A stretch of 64,000 nt of DNA, taken from contig JACJOC010000085.1 of the NCBI GenBank assembly GCA_014695345.1, positions 62,001 to 126,000 of the forward strand, written 5' to 3'. Position numbers and translations under genes: made by a program. The notes under the pieces are model-generated. The model ran no database searches and was not told where the DNA came from. It saw nothing but the letters and a program-made list of their open reading frames with translations. This stretch comes from Cyanobacteria bacterium FACHB-471. Its GTDB lineage: Bacteria > Cyanobacteriota > Cyanobacteriia > Elainellales > Elainellaceae. This document shows, in pieces, positions 41,956 to 55,079 of the stretch. Positions within the stretch are counted from its first letter, which is position 1. Each line of letters starts with the position of its first letter.

Positions 41956-44196
41956 GTGGATGCAGTACTTAATTCGATGACCCCGAATTTAACTCCGATC
42001 GCTTCTCAGTTTAGTTCACTAGAGCAGGCGCTCAAGCACTTTTTTGGCTACGATCGCTTCCGACTGGGGCAACAGCAAATCATTGAGGCGGCACTACAAG
42101 ATCAAGATTTGCTAGTGATCATGCCCACTGGAGGCGGCAAATCTCTGTGTTTCCAGCTTCCGGCGCTGCTCAAACCAGGGCTGACGGTCGTGGTTTCGCC
42201 GCTGATTGCGCTAATGCAAGATCAGGTCGAGGCACTGCAAGATAACGGCATTGGAGCAACCTTCCTCAACAGCAGTGTAGGTTTAACGGAGGTGCGTCAG
42301 CGCGAGGCGGACATTCTCAATGGGCGGATTAAGCTACTCTATGTGGCTCCAGAGCGTTTGTTGGGAGAACGTTTTTTAGCGCTGCTTGACCAGATTCAAG
42401 CAAAAGTCGGGATTGCGGCATTTGCGATCGACGAAGCGCACTGCGTTTCAGAATGGGGGCATGACTTTCGCCCAGAATATCGGCAGCTTCGCAGTTTGCG
42501 CGATCGCTACCCAGATGTGCCCGTGCTGGCACTGACAGCAACAGCAACAGAACGGGTGCGGCAAGACATTGTGCGGCAGTTGGAGTTGCGATCGCCCAAC
42601 ATCCACATCGCTAGTTTCAACCGTCAAAACCTTTACTACGAAGTTCGTCCAAAGCAAAGACATGCCTACGGAGAACTGCTGGAACAGGTGCGACAAACCT
42701 CCGGCTCTGGAATTATTTACTGCCTCAGTCGGCGCAAGGTGGATGAACTCACCTATCGACTTCAGCGTGATGGCGTTGAAGTGCTCCCTTACCACGCCGG
42801 ACTCGGCGATAAGGAGCGATCGCAAAATCAGACCCGCTTCATTCGGGATGACGTGCGCGTTATGGTTGCAACAATCGCCTTTGGTATGGGAATCAACAAG
42901 CCAGACGTGCGGTTTGTGGTTCACTATGACTTGCCCCGCAACCTGGAAGGCTATTATCAGGAGTCGGGACGCGCTGGACGAGATGGCGAAGCGGCACAAT
43001 GCACCCTCTACTTCAGCTACGGCGACATCAAAACGGTTGACTTTCTGATTGAACAGAAGTCTGACCCTGATGAGCAGCAAATTGCCCGCCAGCAGTTGCG
43101 CCAGGTGATCGACTATGCGGAGGGAACAGATTGCCGCCGCCGGATTCAACTGGCTTACTTTGGCGAGAGCTTTATTGGCAACTGCGGCAACTGTGACAAT
43201 TGCTTGCATCCCCGTCCGACGGAAGATTGGACCGTTGAGGCGCAAAAGTTTTTGTCCTGCGTAGCTCGCTGTCGAGAGAGCTTTGGGATGAAGTACATCA
43301 TCGACGTACTGCGCGGGTCCAAAGACAAGCGAATTCTGAAGAACGGACACGACAAGCTTTCGACTTATGGCATTGGGCGCGATCGCAGTGCCGATGCCTG
43401 GAAAGTGTTGGGGCGATCGCTCTTGCATCAAGGCTTGCTGGAAGAAAGCTCGGACGGTTACTCAGTCCTGAAGCTGAATGCCGCCAGTTGGGACGTGATG
43501 CGGAGCCAACGCACGGTCGAGATTGTGTTGCCGCCACGTCTAGAAAGCCAGGCTGAGGAATCTCAACCCAGAGCAGATTCAGAAATGCTGTTTGAGCGGC
43601 TGCGAGTGTTGCGCAAGGCGATCGCCGATGAGCAATCTGTGCCGCCCTACGTCGTCTTTGCTGACTCCAGCTTGCGGCTAATGTCCCAGAAACAGCCCCA
43701 AACTCTAAAAGAATTCGCCAAAATTTCAGGGGTGGGTAGCCACAAGCGCGATCGCTACGGCGCTCGATTTACTGCTGAAATTCGGGCTTTTTGTGAGGAG
43801 CAGGGAATTCCCACTCGCTCAGAAGACGATAATTTCGGTTCAGAACAGACCGAACCCACTCCCTCTCCCTCACCCGAGGGAATGCTGTCCACCACTCACC
43901 TGCACACGCTAGATTTGCACCAGCAGGGCCTGTCTCCAGCCGAAATTGCCGAACAGCGCAACTTTCGCCTCAGTACGATCATTGACCACCTGGGAGTGCT
44001 GATGGAAGCCGGACAACGGGTCGATTTAGATTCGCTCGTTCCACCAGAGCGGCAGGCAACGATTGAGCAGGCGATCGCCATTACCGGCGCAGATTCCCTA
44101 CGGATGATTCGGGATCACTTAGGAGAAACCTACAGCTACCCTGAAATTCGCCTGGTCAGAGCAGCCTGGAAGCGATCGCACTCCGATGACGAATGA
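41956..44196 (+). CDS. recQ: ATP-dependent DNA helicase RecQ
   Basis: A 746-residue 3'-5' helicase for recombination and fork repair. The motor has TGGGKS (58-63) and DEAH (159-162) followed by the aromatic-rich loop [13 protein letters not shown], and motif [12 protein letters not shown]. The zinc-binding part has the Cys set CRRRIQ...CGNCDNC, followed by the RQC winged helix and an HRDC domain ([28 protein letters not shown], split here as LRVLRK...VPPYVVF). After a Thr/Pro/Ser linker (TPSPSPEG) comes a C-terminal helix-turn-helix of the HTH_40 kind ([17 protein letters not shown]). GTG at 41956 is the farthest start; an ATG seven codons on is an alternative. Its stop is 8 bp from that of the convergent kinase. 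Confidence 0.96.
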
Positions 44197-44204
44197 CTGA
44201 GTGG

Positions 44205-47200
44205 CTAAACGCTATTCGCCCTTCCGGTCAGGTTTGCAATCACTGCCATAAATTCCGCCGCATCGACGGGTTTGGGGATGTGAATCTGGAATCCTGCTAA
44301 TAAAAGCTGGGTGCGATCTTCTGGCCCAGCACAGGCGGTTAGTGCGACTGCGGGCAAAATCAGATTGCGATCGCGGGCGATCGCCCGAACTTGTCGAATC
44401 AAAGCATATCCATCTTCTTCTGGCATGTGAATATCGCTGACCAATAAATCGGGGGGTTGGGCGATCGCTCCCGTTAGAAAATCAACCGCCATTCGAGTAG
44501 ATTCCAAAGCAATTACCGTTGCACCACACTGTTCCAAAAGCGTCGTGAGGAAGTCGCGGGTGTCCGCCTCATCATCCACAACTAAAATACGTAATCCGGC
44601 TAGCTGATTTGGCTGGTGAATTGTTTTTTGTCCCAAAACGGTTGGTGAGGTGAGTTCCGCTGCTTCTGCAGCTTCGGGTGGGGCAACCAGCGGCAGGGTA
44701 ACGGTAAAGGTTGCACCCTGTCCCTCTCCCTCGCTCTCTGCCAACACTGTGCCACCGTGCAACTCTACCAGGTGCCGCACAATCGCCAACCCTAACCCCA
44801 ACCCACCGTGAGAACGGGTAATAGAGCTGTCTGCCTGCCGAAATCGATCAAACACATGCGGCAGGAATTTGGGGTTAATGCCTCTACCTGTATCGCTGAC
44901 TCGAATGCTAACGGTACGATTGCTCTGCAATAGCTGCACTTCGACCCTGCCATTTTGCGGCGTAAACTTAATGGCATTAGACAGCAAATTCCAGATAACC
45001 TGCTGGATTCGTTCTGGATCGCCAGAAATCGCCTGAGTTCTGGGGTCGTAAAACGCCTCTAAGTCAATCATTTTGGCTTCAGCCGCCGGACGAACTGAGT
45101 CTAGCGCTGCTTCAATCAGAGAAATGAGGGTGACGGATCGAATGTTAAGCCGCACCTTGCCGCGAATGATCCGCGAAACATCTAAGATATCTCCAACCAG
45201 TTGGGTTTGCGATCGCGCGTTTCGCTCAATCGTTTCGAGTGCCCGATTAACCGTATCCAGGTCAAACTTGCGAGTACGCAACAGTTGTGCCCACCCCAAA
45301 ATGGCATTGAGCGGCGTTCGCAGTTCGTGAGAAAGCGTTGCCAGAAACTCATCCTTCATCCGGTTGGCGGCCTCGGCCTCGGCACGGGCAGCCTGTTCGC
45401 GCACCAGCAATTCGTCCTTAGCTCGGTTGGCGGCTTCTAGCTGAGCAGTGCGTTCAATCACCCGCTGTTCCAGTTCAGCATTGAGCGCACGAATTTGAGC
45501 TTCAGCCTGTTTACGCTGGGTGATGTCGTGCATCACGACCACGGCTCCCAGCTTTGTCCCCTGAGGATCGGCGATCGCCTGCCCGCTAGCTAATACCGTT
45601 CGGGCACTTCCCTGTTTCGGCACAATCATCATTTCCCGATTGTGGACATGCTCGCCTTGCAGGGCCCGAAACATCGGAATCTGCTCTTTGGTCAAAGGGG
45701 TTTGTCCGTCAGGTGAATACAGACTGTAATATTCTGCCCACTGCTCTAGCGCTAGGGCTTGTTCTGGTAGCCCGTGAAATTCTCGGGTTGCCCGGTTGAA
45801 CAAAGTCAACGTGCCATCAGAATCACAAGCGACAATCCCAGCATTCACATTGTCCAGCACGGCTTTGAGAAATTCTTGCTCGCGCACCAGGGCAACTTTA
45901 GCGTTAGAAAGTTCTGCTGTGCGTTGCTCTACTCGTAGCTCTAACTCATTATGAGCCTGCTTTAGCGCAGCCTCCGCCCGTTTCCGCTCGGTGATGTCCA
46001 GCACAAAGGAAACTCCGCACTGGTTAGATTCTTCTAGAAACGCTCCACCAATCAAAACCGGCACCCGGCTACCGTCTTTGCGAAAATACTCTTTCTCGAA
46101 GGGCGCAAACCTACCGGAATGACGCAACTCAGCGACGGTTTTTTGATCCAGATCATAGAACTCGGCCGGTGTCATATTTTTCCAGCTAATTCTGCCTGCC
46201 TGCAAATCCTCTTTGGTGTAGCCGACAGTCTGGAGAAAAGTGTGATTGGCTTCGGTGATGTTGCCCTCTAAATCCCAAAACATGATGCCGATCATGTTCG
46301 ATTCGGCGACTCGTCTAAACCGGGCTTCGCTCTGCCGCAAAGCGATCAGCGCAGCCTGCAATTCTTGCTGACGGCTCGCAACACTTTCTGACAGCGTGAG
46401 TGTATCCTTACTCTGAACGGCAAGCTCATGTTCCAATACATCTCGAAATTGCTTGACAGCCACCTGGTTAGAAACTCTTGCCCGCAGTTCGTCTACTGAA
46501 AAGGGCTTCATTAGATAGTCCTGTGCGCCATGTCGCAACAGATCGATTCTCAGATTGTCATCTGCTTTGGCACTCAACAAAATGATTGGCGTGCTGTTTA
46601 ACTCTGGATAGGTTCGTAGGGTTTGCACCAGTTGATCGCCACTGATTTGAGGCATCATCAGGTCGGTCAAAATCAGGTCGGGCTGAAGGGCGATCGCCTG
46701 TTCTAACCCAGCTTGACCATCGGGAGCCGTGGCAATGCGATATTCCTGCTGTAGGGTTTCGCAGATGAACTGGCTCATATCAGGATTGTCTTCTACAACC
46801 AACACAAGCGGACGGGCTGCTTCTTCTGGAGAGTGGGTGAATGAGTCAGGAGTCTTATGACCATTGCCAACTTCTAAGGTTGCTAGCGTTTGTCGGGCGA
46901 TCGCCTCATCTATCTCTTGGATGGCATCTGCATAGTTAGAAGAATTTTCACCATTACTGCCAGCATTGCTATCAACTAACGGCAGGGTAACGATAAAAGA
47001 GGCTCCACCTCCTGGCGCATCTTCTACTGCAATCGTGCCTTTGTGTAACTCGACAAACTCCTTGGCGATCGCTAACCCTAACCCCGTTCCGCCGTGCTGA
47101 TTGGACTGGCGATCGCCCTGCTGATAGCGCTCAAAAATGATTTGCCGCAGTTCTGGTGACACTCCCGGTCCGCTATCTTGAACCGTTACGCTAACCTGTC

Positions 47201-48137
47201 TAGCAACCTCATCTACCCATGTTTCAGCAAAGCTTCCATTGCTCTGAAGCTGCAAAGTACAGCGTACCTCACCCCCCACTGGCACAAACTTAAACGCATT
47301 AGCCAGCAAATTTAAGAAAACCCGCTGTAGTTTCTCGGCATCTCCTTGAACCAGCAGCGCAGATGGCGTTTCAACAACAAAGTTAACCTGACGTTCTTCT
47401 GCCAATGCGCTGAATTGCGAAGCACTCAGCCGCAAGAGCTGTGCCAGGTCAAGCCGCACACAGCGTAACTCCATCCGATTTGCTTCTAGCTTCGAGATAT
47501 CCAACAAATCGTTGACATATTTCAGCAGGGTACGAGCGTTGCGGTTGATGCTCTCCAGGCTGTGGCGAAAGGGTTGAGCTGCTGCTTCCCGCAGCAAACG
47601 CTCCGTTGGTCCCAGTACCAGCGTCAGCGGCGTTCGCAGTTCATGGCTAACATTGGTGAAAAACTGGGTTTTAGCCTGATCCATCTGCTTAAGCTGATCG
47701 TAGAGCGTGGCTAACTCCTGGTTGGCCATCTCCAGTTGCAGTCTACGCTCTTCCGCTAGTTTTGCACTGCGAACCAACCTTTGAACCTGGGGAATTAAAG
47801 GGGGCAGGGCAAGGGCTGTGATCACGGAGGCGATCGCCGTTACCAGCTTCACTCCCCCTGACAACCAGTAAGTGGGGTGCCAGAGCGTCCATACCTCAAT
47901 AAAATGGGTCGCCCCGCAGGCGGCAATAAACAGCCCAAACGCTAAAAAAATTCCGTGAAAGGGAAGCTGAATTTTACGAACTAGGTGAACCAGCGTTACC
48001 GAAATTGCAAAATAGGCGAGCCCAATTGATAGGTCAGAACCCACATGCAGCCCGACCAGTTCTGGCTTCCATAAATAGCAATGTCCGTGTGGAATAAAGC
48101 CATTGGAAGCAAACAAACTATTCAAAAATTCAGACAT
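44205..48137 (-). CDS. Hybrid histidine kinase with ethylene-binding membrane domain and two kinase-receiver modules
   Basis: A 1310-residue protein. The N-terminal membrane domain (about 1-125, three helices) matches the ethylene-binding domain of plant ETR1: Asp35 and Tyr42 in SDLSIGLAYF, and the copper-ligand pair Cys74 and His78 in ACGATHFIEVWT; the ETR1 Pro36 equivalent is Ser46. Next come HisKA with His165 (NVSHELRTPL), an ATPase domain to about 388, a receiver with Asp492 (ILTDLMMP), two PAS domains (about 603-720 and 752-875), a second HisKA with His937 (TLSHELRTPL), a second ATPase domain and a second receiver with Asp1235 (LVSDIHMP). Synechocystis SynEtr1 is the characterised cyanobacterial relative. 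Ethylene binding is inferred from the conserved ligands; the output partner is unknown. Confidence 0.92.
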   Translation of the reverse strand: MSEFLNSLFASNGFIPHGHCYLWKPELVGLHVGSDLSIGLAYFAISVTLVHLVRKIQLPFHGIFLAFGLFIAACGATHFIEVWTLWHPTYWLSGGVKLVTAIASVITALALPPLIPQVQRLVRSAKLAEERRLQLEMANQELATLYDQLKQMDQAKTQFFTNVSHELRTPLTLVLGPTERLLREAAAQPFRHSLESINRNARTLLKYVNDLLDISKLEANRMELRCVRLDLAQLLRLSASQFSALAEERQVNFVVETPSALLVQGDAEKLQRVFLNLLANAFKFVPVGGEVRCTLQLQSNGSFAETWVDEVARQVSVTVQDSGPGVSPELRQIIFERYQQGDRQSNQHGGTGLGLAIAKEFVELHKGTIAVEDAPGGGASFIVTLPLVDSNAGSNGENSSNYADAIQEIDEAIARQTLATLEVGNGHKTPDSFTHSPEEAARPLVLVVEDNPDMSQFICETLQQEYRIATAPDGQAGLEQAIALQPDLILTDLMMPQISGDQLVQTLRTYPELNSTPIILLSAKADDNLRIDLLRHGAQDYLMKPFSVDELRARVSNQVAVKQFRDVLEHELAVQSKDTLTLSESVASRQQELQAALIALRQSEARFRRVAESNMIGIMFWDLEGNITEANHTFLQTVGYTKEDLQAGRISWKNMTPAEFYDLDQKTVAELRHSGRFAPFEKEYFRKDGSRVPVLIGGAFLEESNQCGVSFVLDITERKRAEAALKQAHNELELRVEQRTAELSNAKVALVREQEFLKAVLDNVNAGIVACDSDGTLTLFNRATREFHGLPEQALALEQWAEYYSLYSPDGQTPLTKEQIPMFRALQGEHVHNREMMIVPKQGSARTVLASGQAIADPQGTKLGAVVVMHDITQRKQAEAQIRALNAELEQRVIERTAQLEAANRAKDELLVREQAARAEAEAANRMKDEFLATLSHELRTPLNAILGWAQLLRTRKFDLDTVNRALETIERNARSQTQLVGDILDVSRIIRGKVRLNIRSVTLISLIEAALDSVRPAAEAKMIDLEAFYDPRTQAISGDPERIQQVIWNLLSNAIKFTPQNGRVEVQLLQSNRTVSIRVSDTGRGINPKFLPHVFDRFRQADSSITRSHGGLGLGLAIVRHLVELHGGTVLAESEGEGQGATFTVTLPLVAPPEAAEAAELTSPTVLGQKTIHQPNQLAGLRILVVDDEADTRDFLTTLLEQCGATVIALESTRMAVDFLTGAIAQPPDLLVSDIHMPEEDGYALIRQVRAIARDRNLILPAVALTACAGPEDRTQLLLAGFQIHIPKPVDAAEFMAVIANLTGRANSV

Positions 48138-48473: not shown

Positions 48474-49676
48474 CTATCGCTGAGACTTGTGAATTGGAGT
48501 ACCACAAGGGTAGGTGGCAATAGGCTCACGCTTTTCGGAGGTTGGTATACTTGCAACGGACGACACAAGCTCTCGGTCTGCCTGTTGCGCGGTTATGTAA
48601 TCTTGCCGCAGTTGCTCCAACAGTTCTTCACGGCGATCGTAGAGCCGCTTCAGCGGACGGGGAGGACACTGGTTGGTCACATAAGCAGTCAGAATCGGCA
48701 GTGCGATCGTGCTGTCGGTGTAGCAGACCACTGTGCTGGGTAGCTCATTCGGGTCAATTTTGCCCCAACTTACCGCTTCGGTAGGTGTTGCACCAGAAAG
48801 CCCACCCGTATCAGGACGAGCATCGGTAATCTGAATAAAGTAGTCATGACCGCGCTCTTCTAGACCCAACACCTCATGAATTTGGGGCTGAGTTTGCAGC
48901 AGGAAATTTTTGGGGCTACCACCACCAATGATCACCGCAGCGCTCTTGCCCTCTACACCGGGAAGGTCTGAATTGCGAGCACCATAGGCGATCGCCGCTG
49001 TCTCATTCACATCGAGGGAGGGGTCAAGCACCAGTTTCGATCCTTCCAATGCCAGTGCAGCTACATTCATTCCAATCGAACTGTCTCCAGGCGAAGAGGT
49101 GTAAATCGGTACGCCACATTCGTAAGCAGTAGAAAGCAGGCAGGGATGCTGCACACCGCGTCTTTTCTCAACTTCACTCACGTATTTACCTAAAAGATAA
49201 TGAAACTCAGCAGTTCCCATACGTTTTTGGAAGGGTTCAGAACGCAACAACTCACGGATGAAGGCATCGGTTTCTAGCAGCACATCGTAGTCAAATACGA
49301 TGTCATAAATCCGAATCCGGCCTTCCTGGCGGAGCTTCACATCATCTACGAAAGGATTGCTGGCAAACAGGTCTAGCCCCAAACCGTAATGCATATCGTG
49401 ATACAGATTTGCCCCGGTGCTGATGATGTAATCGATCATGCCGTTGCGAATCAGCGGTGCCAAAACCGATACGCCAAATCCAGCAGGGGTCATCGCGCCT
49501 GATAGGGTCAGTCCAACCGTAACGCCCTCACGCATCACTTCGCGGCTAAGCAAGTGACAAATTTCTCTCAAACGCGCAGAGTTGTAGGCAGTGAAGTAGC
49601 TGTCGATCAAATCGACCACGCTAATTTCTTTGGGCATCGGAGCAGGTGCGATCTTGTGGCTGAGCGATTTAGACAT
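48474..49676 (-). CDS. Deoxyhypusine-synthase-family protein
   Basis: A 400-residue cytoplasmic enzyme of the NAD-dependent deoxyhypusine synthase fold. Conserved parts are [27 protein letters not shown], the [12 protein letters not shown] active-site region and [16 protein letters not shown]. In eukaryotes and archaea this enzyme moves a butylamine unit from spermidine to a lysine of eIF5A. Bacteria lack eIF5A; the bacterial homologues are thought to make or alter polyamines (for instance homospermidine-type products), so the substrate here is open. The active-site Lys that forms the enamine-type intermediate cannot be placed with certainty; the segment AVSWGKIDP carries a good candidate. 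Start [11 protein letters not shown]. Monocistronic. Confidence 0.85.
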
Positions 49677-52922: not shown

Positions 52923-55079
52923 TTAAATTCCATTGTTCACCTCAATGCCAGGTAGGCTGTTGAGTTGAGCGTCGGTGAGCGGATTGCCGCCAAAGTTGCT
53001 ATACATCCGAGCTAAAACACCCGTAAAGGCGGCATTGTAATCGAGCGCAACTTCGTTAGAAATGTAATCGGTGCGGGCATCGGTATAGGCATTGTCATTG
53101 GGGGCAGACGGACCACCTACCAGTGCACCATAAAGAATATTGCGGTTGGCAGTAGGGTCGCTGATGTTGGTTGTGCCAGAGGCTCCACGATGATGAGGAT
53201 TCTTAGGTGACTTGTCCCCAAACCCAACCATGTAGCTCATTTGGTTGGGGTTAACGCCCAAAATGTAATCGACCTGGTCTTCTGTGAAGTTAGAATAGCG
53301 CCCTCCTCCGTTGTTGACCGTATCGCTGTAAATTCCTGATAGGAAAGCAGTATTAGCGCTGTAGCGCAGGGAACCCCACTGGTCGAGCCATGCCATGCCG
53401 CCTTCTGTATGTTTGACGCTGCCGGTTTTGCTGCTCCAGTTGTTGAGCCAGCCTTCTACATCATTGCGGTATTTAACATTACCTGTTTCCTGAGCCAGCA
53501 GAATGGCTGCACCGTGAGATTTGTTGTCCCAGTTGTGGGTCCAGCCTGCATTCACGCCCTGATAGTAGCTTTCAGCTTTGTTGAGGTAGTTTTTGTCGCC
53601 TGTAGCTTTGTAAAGCCAGGTCGCGCCCCAAACCAGTTCGTCGTTGTAACCGCTCCAGGAGTTATAGTAATTCGCAGCATCGGGAATGGAGTCGGAATAC
53701 TTGCCCCGATAGGTGTCTGCGAACTGGAATAGCTGAACGGCGTTCTTGAGCAAGCGATCGGCGTAGGCAGGGTCAGATGAGCGGAAGACGATAGAAGCTG
53801 AGGCGAGGGCAGCAGCAGCTTCACCCGCCAGGTCAGAACCGGGATTTTGGCGATCGATTTTATAGGCAGGGCGTTGCATTGTCATGTTTTCAGCAGATCC
53901 CCAATAGGCATGATCGAGGTCACCTCGTCCGACTTGCCCCCAAAATGCTTTAGTGCCATTGCTGTCGGTGACGTGTGCTTTGAGGATGTAGTCTGTCCCC
54001 CAACGGATAGAATCGAGTGCCTCATCAAGCTGCCCACTTTTTTGGTAAGCCTCGCGGTATTCAATCACACCCCAACTGAGCAGCGTCATTGAACCCGCCA
54101 TAGGGAAGCCAAATTTGACGTGATCGCCTGCATCATAGTAACCACCCGCGAGATCAACGCCGACATCAGCTCCGTCTTTGAGTCCAGAGTTGCCACGCCA
54201 TTCAATTCGATTGTCATTAGGAAGCGCACCGGAGCGCTGAGCTTCGTAAAAAAGCAGGGATTTTTGCAGCGCTTCTCCGTAATTGGGGACTCCGGAAGCG
54301 GGTGGGGGAAGAGGCGCGGGAGTCGGGGTGGGAGCCGGAGTCGGGGTGGGAACTGTGGATACGTCGTCGTTGAGGAGAGTGGCGAGCGCCTGTCCATCTC
54401 GAATCGTAGCTTTTGTGGAGCTAGCCAGGTTGAGCTTAAAGGTTTCGTTTGCCTCGACCGTATTGTCGCCCTTAATGGTGACAGCAATCTTTTTGGAAGT
54501 TTCACCAGGCGCGAAAGTCAGGGTGCCAGAAGTAGCACCGTAATCAGAACCAGAGCTAGCGGTTCCATTGGCGGTGGAGTAATTGACCGACACAGAACTG
54601 GTGCTGGCTTGAGAGAGCTTAACGGTGAATGCGGCGTTGGTGTTGGTATTGAGAGTGCCTTCCTTAACGGAGAAGTCGTCGACCGAGAGTGTGGGTAGGG
54701 CGATCGGAGCAGGTGCAGGGGTAGGTGTCGGAGCAGGGATAGGGGTAGGTGTGGGGGGAGGTGTGGACGAACCCAACGACTGCCCATTCAAAATGTAGTT
54801 AGTTGGCTTAATGGTCGTTCCACTTGACTTATTGCCATTAAATCCAAAGGAAATATTTTGACCCGGAGAAATGCTGCCATTCCAGCTACCATTTCGGACT
54901 ACATACCGATTTCCTGTTTTGCTGACGATTTCAGCATTCCAAATATTGGTAATTTCAAAAGGAGCCTCAAACTCTAGTGTCCATTGTTTCAGAGAACTGG
55001 TGCCACCGTTCGTGATGGACATTCCCCCAGTGAAGCCGCTACCCCAGTCATTGTTTACGGAAAAGGCGACAGTATTCAT
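52923..55079 (-). CDS. Modular GH9 cellulase: CBM2, Calx-beta, GH9
   Basis: A 718-residue endoglucanase-type enzyme cutting beta-1,4-glucan. Residues 1-100 form a CBM2 cellulose-binding module (NDWGSGFTGGMSITN, conserved Trp residues 12, 33, 47, 66). A Pro/Thr linker (106-129) leads to a Calx-beta domain (132-240), a second Pro/Thr linker (243-262), then GH9 from about 265. Catalytic residues: the DAGDH motif at 316-320, NPHHR near the end, and Glu676 in NEVALDY as the proposed acid. There is no signal peptide: the CBM begins at residue 2. Calx-beta modules and signal-less termini are common in calcium-binding exoproteins of cyanobacteria, often exported by type I secretion. It may trim cell-made cellulose or have come by transfer; the domain order is seen, the rest is inference. 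Confidence 0.92.
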   Translation of the reverse strand: MNTVAFSVNNDWGSGFTGGMSITNGGTSSLKQWTLEFEAPFEITNIWNAEIVSKTGNRYVVRNGSWNGSISPGQNISFGFNGNKSSGTTIKPTNYILNGQSLGSSTPPPTPTPIPAPTPTPAPAPIALPTLSVDDFSVKEGTLNTNTNAAFTVKLSQASTSSVSVNYSTANGTASSGSDYGATSGTLTFAPGETSKKIAVTIKGDNTVEANETFKLNLASSTKATIRDGQALATLLNDDVSTVPTPTPAPTPTPAPLPPPASGVPNYGEALQKSLLFYEAQRSGALPNDNRIEWRGNSGLKDGADVGVDLAGGYYDAGDHVKFGFPMAGSMTLLSWGVIEYREAYQKSGQLDEALDSIRWGTDYILKAHVTDSNGTKAFWGQVGRGDLDHAYWGSAENMTMQRPAYKIDRQNPGSDLAGEAAAALASASIVFRSSDPAYADRLLKNAVQLFQFADTYRGKYSDSIPDAANYYNSWSGYNDELVWGATWLYKATGDKNYLNKAESYYQGVNAGWTHNWDNKSHGAAILLAQETGNVKYRNDVEGWLNNWSSKTGSVKHTEGGMAWLDQWGSLRYSANTAFLSGIYSDTVNNGGGRYSNFTEDQVDYILGVNPNQMSYMVGFGDKSPKNPHHRGASGTTNISDPTANRNILYGALVGGPSAPNDNAYTDARTDYISNEVALDYNAAFTGVLARMYSNFGGNPLTDAQLNSLPGIEVNNGI

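Follow-up and report, generated by a model that had tools for sequence, protein, structure and literature searches.

A cyanobacterial ETR1_N histidine kinase with two kinase-receiver sets and its double-kinase relatives with a substituted Pro36 position

The window analyzed here is a stretch of 64,000 nucleotides from Cyanobacteria bacterium FACHB-471 (contig JACJOC010000085.1, positions 62,001 to 126,000), and the gene in question encodes a histidine kinase of 1310 amino acids that combines, in a single chain, an ETR1_N membrane domain, a first HisKA-HATPase-receiver set, two PAS domains, and a second HisKA-HATPase-receiver set, in that order. The occurrence of an ETR1_N domain with two kinases is confirmed as real, and chance is excluded because of the Pfam scores, the presence of the front half in other phyla, and purifying selection. 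Sequence comparison establishes the anatomy of the protein, its intact active sites, its constraint, and its kinship. The best explanation, to which we give about an even chance, is that the protein is the copper-site membrane sensor of a distinct double-kinase branch of ETR1_N proteins and would signal through a TodS-like His-Asp-His-Asp relay.

A sequence-only reading of the window had placed an ETR1-type domain at the N terminus, followed by two complete kinase-receiver sets around two PAS domains, and both proposals hold. ETR1_N was found at residues 27 to 120 with 118.6 bits against a cutoff of 27, and a profile test for nonmembership of the family (PF25487) came out negative. HisKA, HATPase_c, and Response_reg were each recovered in two stretches, together with the two PAS domains, all above cutoff; Pfam output gives one best stretch per family, and second positions were taken from profiles built on the protein and its relatives. 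The eight residues named in that reading (D35, Y42, C74, H78, H165, D492, H937, and D1235) were each found where claimed, and the tested active-site residues of both sets are intact. Between membrane helix 3 and kinase 1 (residues 121 to 152) there is no GAF domain, nor did Pfam find any other domain there. The AlphaFold2 (AF2) model of the N-terminal 150 residues, made with 53 sequences, has a mean predicted local distance difference test (pLDDT) score of 89 and helices at residues 25 to 55, 61 to 86, 90 to 110, and 114 to 149, of which the first three are predicted to be long enough for the membrane and the last to be a linker helix. No solved PDB relative of the membrane domain was found by sequence or by fold (best Foldseek E value, 0.95).

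The seven binding residues of AtETR1, among which we take Tyr32 to be one, as did the sequence-only reading, correspond by spacing to D35, Y42, I45, S46, I71, C74, and H78 of the window protein: six are kept, and Pro36 is replaced by Ser46. The four residues previously put forward as the ETR1 ligand set are therefore present, but the full set of seven is not. The copper ligands Cys65 and His69 of AtETR1 correspond to C74 and H78, and loss of this putative copper-binding pair in close homologues was looked for and not found, since it is kept in 37/37 rows of the double-kinase clade. The seven residues are described as required for ethylene binding in AtETR1 (PMC6682694) and were found by alanine scanning, with D25 among them (PMC11819568); a further study names I35, P36, I62, C65, and H69 for binding, with P36 essential (PMC6586836).

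Residues were counted in 130 ETR1_N rows after repeats (L001 to L004 and L054 to L056) and identical sequences had been dropped. The double-kinase group in this set has 34 rows (31 with both kinases in frame plus L035, L072, and L080, in which the frame or contig is broken); the Pro36 position is occupied by Ser in 33 of them and by Ala in the other. Three members that joined the count later (L157 to L159), relatives of the myxococcal member described below, all have Ala, one of them with Asn for Asp35, so that the clade totals are Ser in 33/37 and Ala in 4/37. The Tyr, both Ile, the Cys, and the His are kept in 37/37 clade rows, Asp in 36/37, and Pro in 0/37. The other 96 rows have Pro in 87, Ser in 7, and Ala in 1; the remaining row, L033, is fragmentary and gapped at all seven sites. 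Positions 52, 66, 79, 103, and 112 are also group specific, and the output positions 97, 104, and 116 (AtETR1 K91, S98, and P110 by spacing) are kept in 34/34, 34/34, and 32/34 clade rows. Because each of the 37 clade rows has Ser or Ala where AtETR1 has Pro36, ethylene binding cannot be assumed. One required residue was checked and is absent, so the name ethylene receptor is premature for the window protein; ethylene is a plausible candidate ligand.

It could nevertheless be a true ethylene receptor that copes with the Pro-to-Ser change, with kinase 1 under the control of ethylene as in SynEtr1 or AzoEtr1, a reading that we place somewhat below an even chance. It would account for the retention of six of the seven binding residues and of the signal output residues; changes in the domain are mostly silent (ratio of nonsynonymous to synonymous substitution rates [dN/dS], 0.05 to 0.06 against congeners), and the clade-specific residues 52, 66, 79, and 103 could compensate. 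It is weakened by the essential role of P36 in AtETR1 (PMC6586836), the required residues having been identified by alanine scanning (PMC11819568), by the presence of Ala, the residue used in that scan, in 4/37 clade rows, and by the bacterial receptors with a reported seven-residue check (GeiEtr1, GeiEtr2, and AzoEtr1), all of which keep all seven. Eight rows outside the clade also have Ser or Ala (L047, L049, L038, L046, L050, L051, L052, and L148). L047 joins the clade in the ETR1_N domain tree (22 rows, 100/98), from which L049 was omitted as a near copy. Also counting against the reading, four of the other six have lost another binding or output residue (L046, L050, and L052 lack further binding residues, and L051 lacks two output residues), whereas L038 and L148 lack only the Pro.

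Alternatively, the copper site may be kept with a changed ligand, such that Cu(I) is bound and CO, another alkene, an oxygen species, or copper supply is sensed, which we regard as possible but unlikely. The conservation of Tyr, both Ile, Cys, and His in every clade row and of Asp in 36, with Pro in none, fits such a change, as do the further clade-specific positions in the membrane helices. The window genome encodes four ETR1_N proteins, two of which (L036 and L037) have the full seven-residue set and would already provide an ethylene sensor. Nothing direct points to another ligand, however, and loss of the Pro may be neutral. Further, the tree of rows requires five changes to non-Pro and two to the double-kinase layout, and an independent-pairs test found one pair on supported branches; loss of the Pro within the clade was probably one ancestral event, so the rows are not independent.

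L046, L050, and L052 are multi-PAS ETR1_N proteins in which a copper ligand or other binding residues have been lost, and some ETR1_N domains have thus probably lost ethylene sensing. L047 and L049 (genomes G026 and G025) carry a Ser-type ETR1_N domain in another layout, with one kinase followed by three receivers, and the Ser-type sensor domain thus seems to have moved between architectures.

The double-kinase layout is not unique to the window protein and recurs in 19/388 sampled genomes of the class and outside cyanobacteria. ETR1_N is present in 204/388 of these genomes, and a front-half profile (ETR1_N, kinase 1, and receiver 1) matched in 20/388 at an E value of ≤1e-95, one of which (G086, 332 bits) holds a single-kinase protein outside the clade. 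Within the class, the clade accounts for 21 matches of at least 628 bits in the remaining 19 genomes; each of the 21 is accompanied by a second kinase, either as part of its chain or, for broken frames, immediately beside it. A scan of genome contigs with two peptide patterns from the query, and hence biased to it, kept 80/162 loci. The noncyanobacterial members are from “Proteobacteria bacterium 005FR1” and the myxococcus Citreicoccus inhibens; among 40 genomes around the latter, 5 match (itself included), and 4 of these have ETR1_N and two kinases. The fifth (L160, in G393) has two kinases with the same type of front kinase but no ETR1_N according to the profile built here, seemingly with PAS in its place, and it was excluded from every clade count.

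A second kinase was seen in every unbroken clade member, and most members lack PAS. The commonest layout is ETR1_N-kinase-receiver-kinase without PAS, spanning 821 to 974 amino acids from stop to stop, with the exception of L159 (G396), which is related to the myxococcal member and has up to ∼450 residues before ETR1_N in the same open frame. The window protein, L048/L077 (Oculatella), L093 (truncated by the contig end), and L102 have PAS or GAF domains separating receiver 1 from kinase 2, and a terminal receiver is present in the window protein, L094, L096, L097, and L102. The exact order of the window protein, with two PAS domains and a terminal receiver, was found only in the window and, with broken frames, in its two congeners. 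Since most members have no PAS, integration of ethylene with a PAS-sensed signal, proposed earlier from this one protein, cannot be what the layout generally serves. The front half of the window protein is shared with Phormidium tenue FACHB-886 (L085), Laspinema palackyanum (L094), Citreicoccus inhibens (L099), Aphanothece sp. CMT-3BRIN-NPC111 (L102), and Oculatella sp. LEGE 06141 (L048/L077), all with Ser or Ala at position 46. L102 resembles the window protein further in having PAS and a terminal receiver but carries PAS-GAF instead of the PAS-PAS pair, and most clade relatives differ from it in lacking both PAS and the terminal receiver.

Both kinases of the branch keep the catalytic residues tested. 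Across 32 distinct double-kinase proteins, each kinase retains the phospho-acceptor His, the N-box Asn, and the tested G1 and G2 residues (32/32 at each of 12 places), and receiver 1 has the Asp and a Thr or Ser in all 32 and the Lys in 31 (with one gap). Near copies (L063, L077, L081, and L084) were dropped, as was, for the active-site count, L093, whose second HATPase is cut by the contig end. The two kinases differ in descent. Kinase 1 forms one clade (7/7 chosen rows, 100/99; 34 rows, starred, in a quick tree). A single origin of kinase 2 was rejected, as holding 32 rows together cost 65 log units (approximately unbiased test, p-AU of 0.013); holding together the 27 cyanobacterial rows, a subset chosen after the first tree, cost 36 log units (p of 0.034). 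In these comparisons kinase 2 rows were grouped by chain position, long branches were present, and the outgroup was narrow, comprising the 15 best own-genome matches to the kinase 2 of the window protein and the kinases of a few fetched loci.

Kinase 2 of 19 compact cyanobacterial members forms one group (100/97) of a different lineage from that of the window protein, and kinase 2 of the compact members L090 and L092 lies apart from this group. Kinase 2 of the window protein and of Oculatella falls with Laspinema-type members and hybrid kinases from genes next to the latter (8 rows, 98/85), and those of the proteobacterial and myxococcal members lie apart on long branches. Because kinase 1 is one clade and kinase 2 is not, the front half seems to have remained constant while kinase 2 was exchanged during evolution, and in some lineages kinase 2 was probably replaced by copies of ordinary hybrid kinases. 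In Laspinema and Phormidium pseudopriestleyi (L094, L096, and L097), kinase 2 groups with neighboring hybrid kinase genes (6 rows, 100/99), which suggests exchange with the adjacent gene.

This descent could also mean that two separate hybrid kinases, ETR1_N-kinase-receiver and PAS-PAS-kinase-receiver, were fused by chance and that each signals alone, which we consider rather improbable. Both halves of the window protein are complete, and its kinase 2 nests with hybrid kinases in the eight-row group above. However, all unbroken clade members found have a second kinase, and since most members lack a terminal receiver and PAS, their second kinase is no hybrid kinase in itself. Exchange of kinase 2 while the layout was kept would likewise argue for a need for two kinases per chain.

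Every domain of the protein is constrained, with dN/dS values of 0.01 to 0.14 across domains in three genome pairs. Against two congeners, for which dS is near 1 and values are rough, dN/dS was 0.09 and 0.07 for the whole gene, 0.06 and 0.05 for ETR1_N, and 0.045 and 0.03 for kinase 2. In both congeners, which are metagenome-assembled genomes (MAGs), the orthologue is split, into three and four frames (L034 in G001 and L035 in G002), and a single DNA alignment covers the whole gene in each. The splits are single-base deletions at gene nucleotides 308, 1241, 2559, and 3784, two in one MAG and three in the other, with one of the four places in common; three are at GGCGATCGCC and one is in a CCC run. 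We take the GGCGATCGCC motif to be HIP1. Of the single-base gaps on the MAG side, 2/11 and 2/15 are at GGCGATCGCC, small counts in which all four fall in the sensor gene; gaps outside the sensor gene lie outside listed genes, except for one in recQ. The frame breaks are probably assembly or sequence errors rather than loss, because the two MAGs, compared with each other, give a dN/dS of 0.09 (dS, 0.22). A pseudogene in the two congeners was considered, but broken frames conflict with that value; systematic read or assembly error at GGCGATCGCC is, as a guess, a better fit, and true recent loss of frame in the two MAGs may have occurred. The converse artifact, a false fusion of two adjacent genes in the window genome, might be read from the split frames of its two nearest genomes but is very improbable given that these splits are single-base deletions within one continuous DNA alignment, and it was rejected on the unbroken double-kinase chains in Oculatella, Laspinema, Aphanothece, and others.

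We return to the explanation that we favor, a copper-site membrane sensor with a TodS-like relay, which would operate as follows. (i) A ligand at the membrane Cu(I) site, either ethylene or some other Cu(I)-binding small molecule, would set the activity of kinase 1. (ii) The phosphoryl group would pass from His165 to Asp492, His937, and Asp1235, as in the His1-Asp1-His2-Asp2 scheme of TodS/TodT, and the PAS domains could gate kinase 2. (iii) The signal would leave through an unlinked response regulator or HPt protein, because the window protein has neither an output domain nor an adjacent regulator gene. In compact relatives, kinase 2 would more likely act on a separate receiver, which is encoded adjacent at some loci. 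Several points weigh against this explanation. First, phosphate may run through each half separately instead of from the first half to the second. Second, Ser46 stands in place of a residue reported to be essential in AtETR1. Third, kinase 2 of the window protein groups with ordinary hybrid kinases, and the back half may therefore act as an independent hybrid kinase that happens to share the chain. Fourth, there is no regulator gene beside the window gene, whose neighbors encode RecQ and a deoxyhypusine-synthase-family protein. A broader scenario, which we put forward as speculation and think unlikely to be correct as a whole, is that a branch spanning more than one phylum replaced the residue essential for binding with Ser, or with the same Ala that was used in the plant scan, and kept the copper site, that it acts as a two-kinase relay in which the front was inherited as a block while kinase 2 was repeatedly exchanged from local hybrid kinases, and that it senses, in place of ethylene or in addition to it, a different molecule bound to Cu(I).

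Table 1. Coordinates in the window of the sensor gene, its parts, and the adjacent genes
Feature	Position	Strand	Basis or remark
Whole gene, ETR1_N double hybrid histidine kinase, 1310 amino acids, ATG start	44205..48137	-	Open reading frame
ETR1_N membrane sensor domain, residues 27-120	47778..48059	-	Pfam PF25487, 118.6 bits; AF2 mean pLDDT 89
Codon of Ser46, place of AtETR1 Pro36	48000..48002	-	Spacing from D35 and I45
Predicted helical linker joining membrane helix 3 and kinase 1, residues 121-152	47682..47777	-	AF2 helix 114-149
HisKA 1, residues 154-218, phospho-acceptor His165	47484..47678	-	Pfam; own-profile boundaries
HATPase 1, residues 263-387	46977..47351	-	Pfam, own profiles, active-site count
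Receiver 1, residues 445-555, Asp492	46473..46805	-	Pfam
PAS 1, residues 617-717	45987..46289	-	Pfam
PAS 2, residues 755-872	45522..45875	-	Pfam
HisKA 2, residues 927-990, His937	45168..45359	-	Pfam
HATPase 2, residues 1039-1150	44688..45023	-	Pfam
Receiver 2, residues 1184-1297, Asp1235	44247..44588	-	Pfam; own-profile boundaries
RecQ gene	41956-44196	+	Neighbor of sensor gene
Deoxyhypusine-synthase-family gene	48474-49676	-	Upstream of sensor gene

The deoxyhypusine-synthase-family gene also adjoins the sensor gene in both congeners. That a regulator lies beside every member was rejected: a separate same-strand receiver gene is found 60 to 506 bp upstream at only 6/21 double-kinase loci with flanks (L082, L083, L085, L086, L088, and L095; Pfam was run on one), and the window has none. 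L094 and L096 have a receiver gene downstream, L094, L096, and L097 have a hybrid kinase gene upstream, and L102 has an upstream cluster of two-component genes. Elsewhere in the window, positions 52923-55079 (- strand) encode a probable cyanobacterial cellulase, a glycosyl hydrolase of family 9 that also carries CBM_2 and Calx-beta domains.

No ETR1-type receptor with two kinases was found in the literature among the matches listed, with most subscription journals outside the search. Outputs of bacterial ethylene-domain proteins have been described as ranging “from simple to complex” (PMC7700396), and double-kinase cases may already have been seen by specialists in databases. The parts are known; within the same scope of the literature, the combination, the cross-phylum spread, the substituted pocket residue, and the swapping of kinase 2 were unmatched. 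The bacterial ethylene receptors described in the sources available are single-kinase proteins, and a conserved double-kinase branch with a substituted pocket provides a natural test of the role of Pro36 and of whether ETR1 domains sense anything besides ethylene. The apparent swapping of kinase 2, with the front half unchanged, would similarly be a natural experiment in phosphorelay rewiring.

The characterized cyanobacterial receptors are simpler, as stated in the sequence-only reading, with one kinase each in SynEtr1, GeiEtr1, and GeiEtr2 (PMC6682694). SynEtr1/UirS (slr1212) of Synechocystis sp. PCC 6803 resembles the window protein in its N-terminal ETR1-type domain, cyanobacterial histidine kinase, and second sensory input (PMC6682694). 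It differs in having one kinase, a phytochrome-like second sensor, the regulators slr1213 and slr1214, and measured ethylene binding, whereas two kinases, two receivers, and a Ser in place of Pro36 characterize the window protein. GeiEtr1 and GeiEtr2 of Geitlerinema sp. PCC 7105 share the ETR1-type domain, and GeiEtr2 also has PAS, GAF, and a C-terminal receiver, but each has one kinase and all seven binding residues (PMC6682694). AzoEtr1 of Azospirillum brasilense is likewise a bacterial ETR1-type receptor kinase; unlike the window protein, it has 525 amino acids, one PAS, one kinase, a regulator gene overlapping its end, and all seven residues, and it binds ethylene (PMC11819568).

The closest layout is that of TodS, in which two transmitters surround a receiver in a His1-Asp1-His2-Asp2 scheme and aromatic compounds act on the N-terminal sensor (PMC4321377). 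TodS, TmoS, and StyS of pseudomonads share with the window protein the transmitter-receiver-transmitter order, a sensor before kinase 1, and PAS before kinase 2, but TodS is without membrane regions, has an N-terminal PAS sensor and a central receiver as its sole receiver, and acts on TodT (PMC4321377). The window protein, conversely, has a predicted membrane copper-site sensor, its own last receiver, and no PAS before kinase 1. StyS of Pseudomonas aligns to window protein residues 121 to 1304 (80% query coverage and 32.7% identity), and the window protein has the TodS-type transmitter-receiver-transmitter order with both kinases predicted to be intact. In TodS-type systems, the gene for the cognate regulator TodT is adjacent, unlike the situation at the window gene. 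As judged from its sequence, then, the window protein is a member of the ETR1_N family by kinship and TodS-like by layout.

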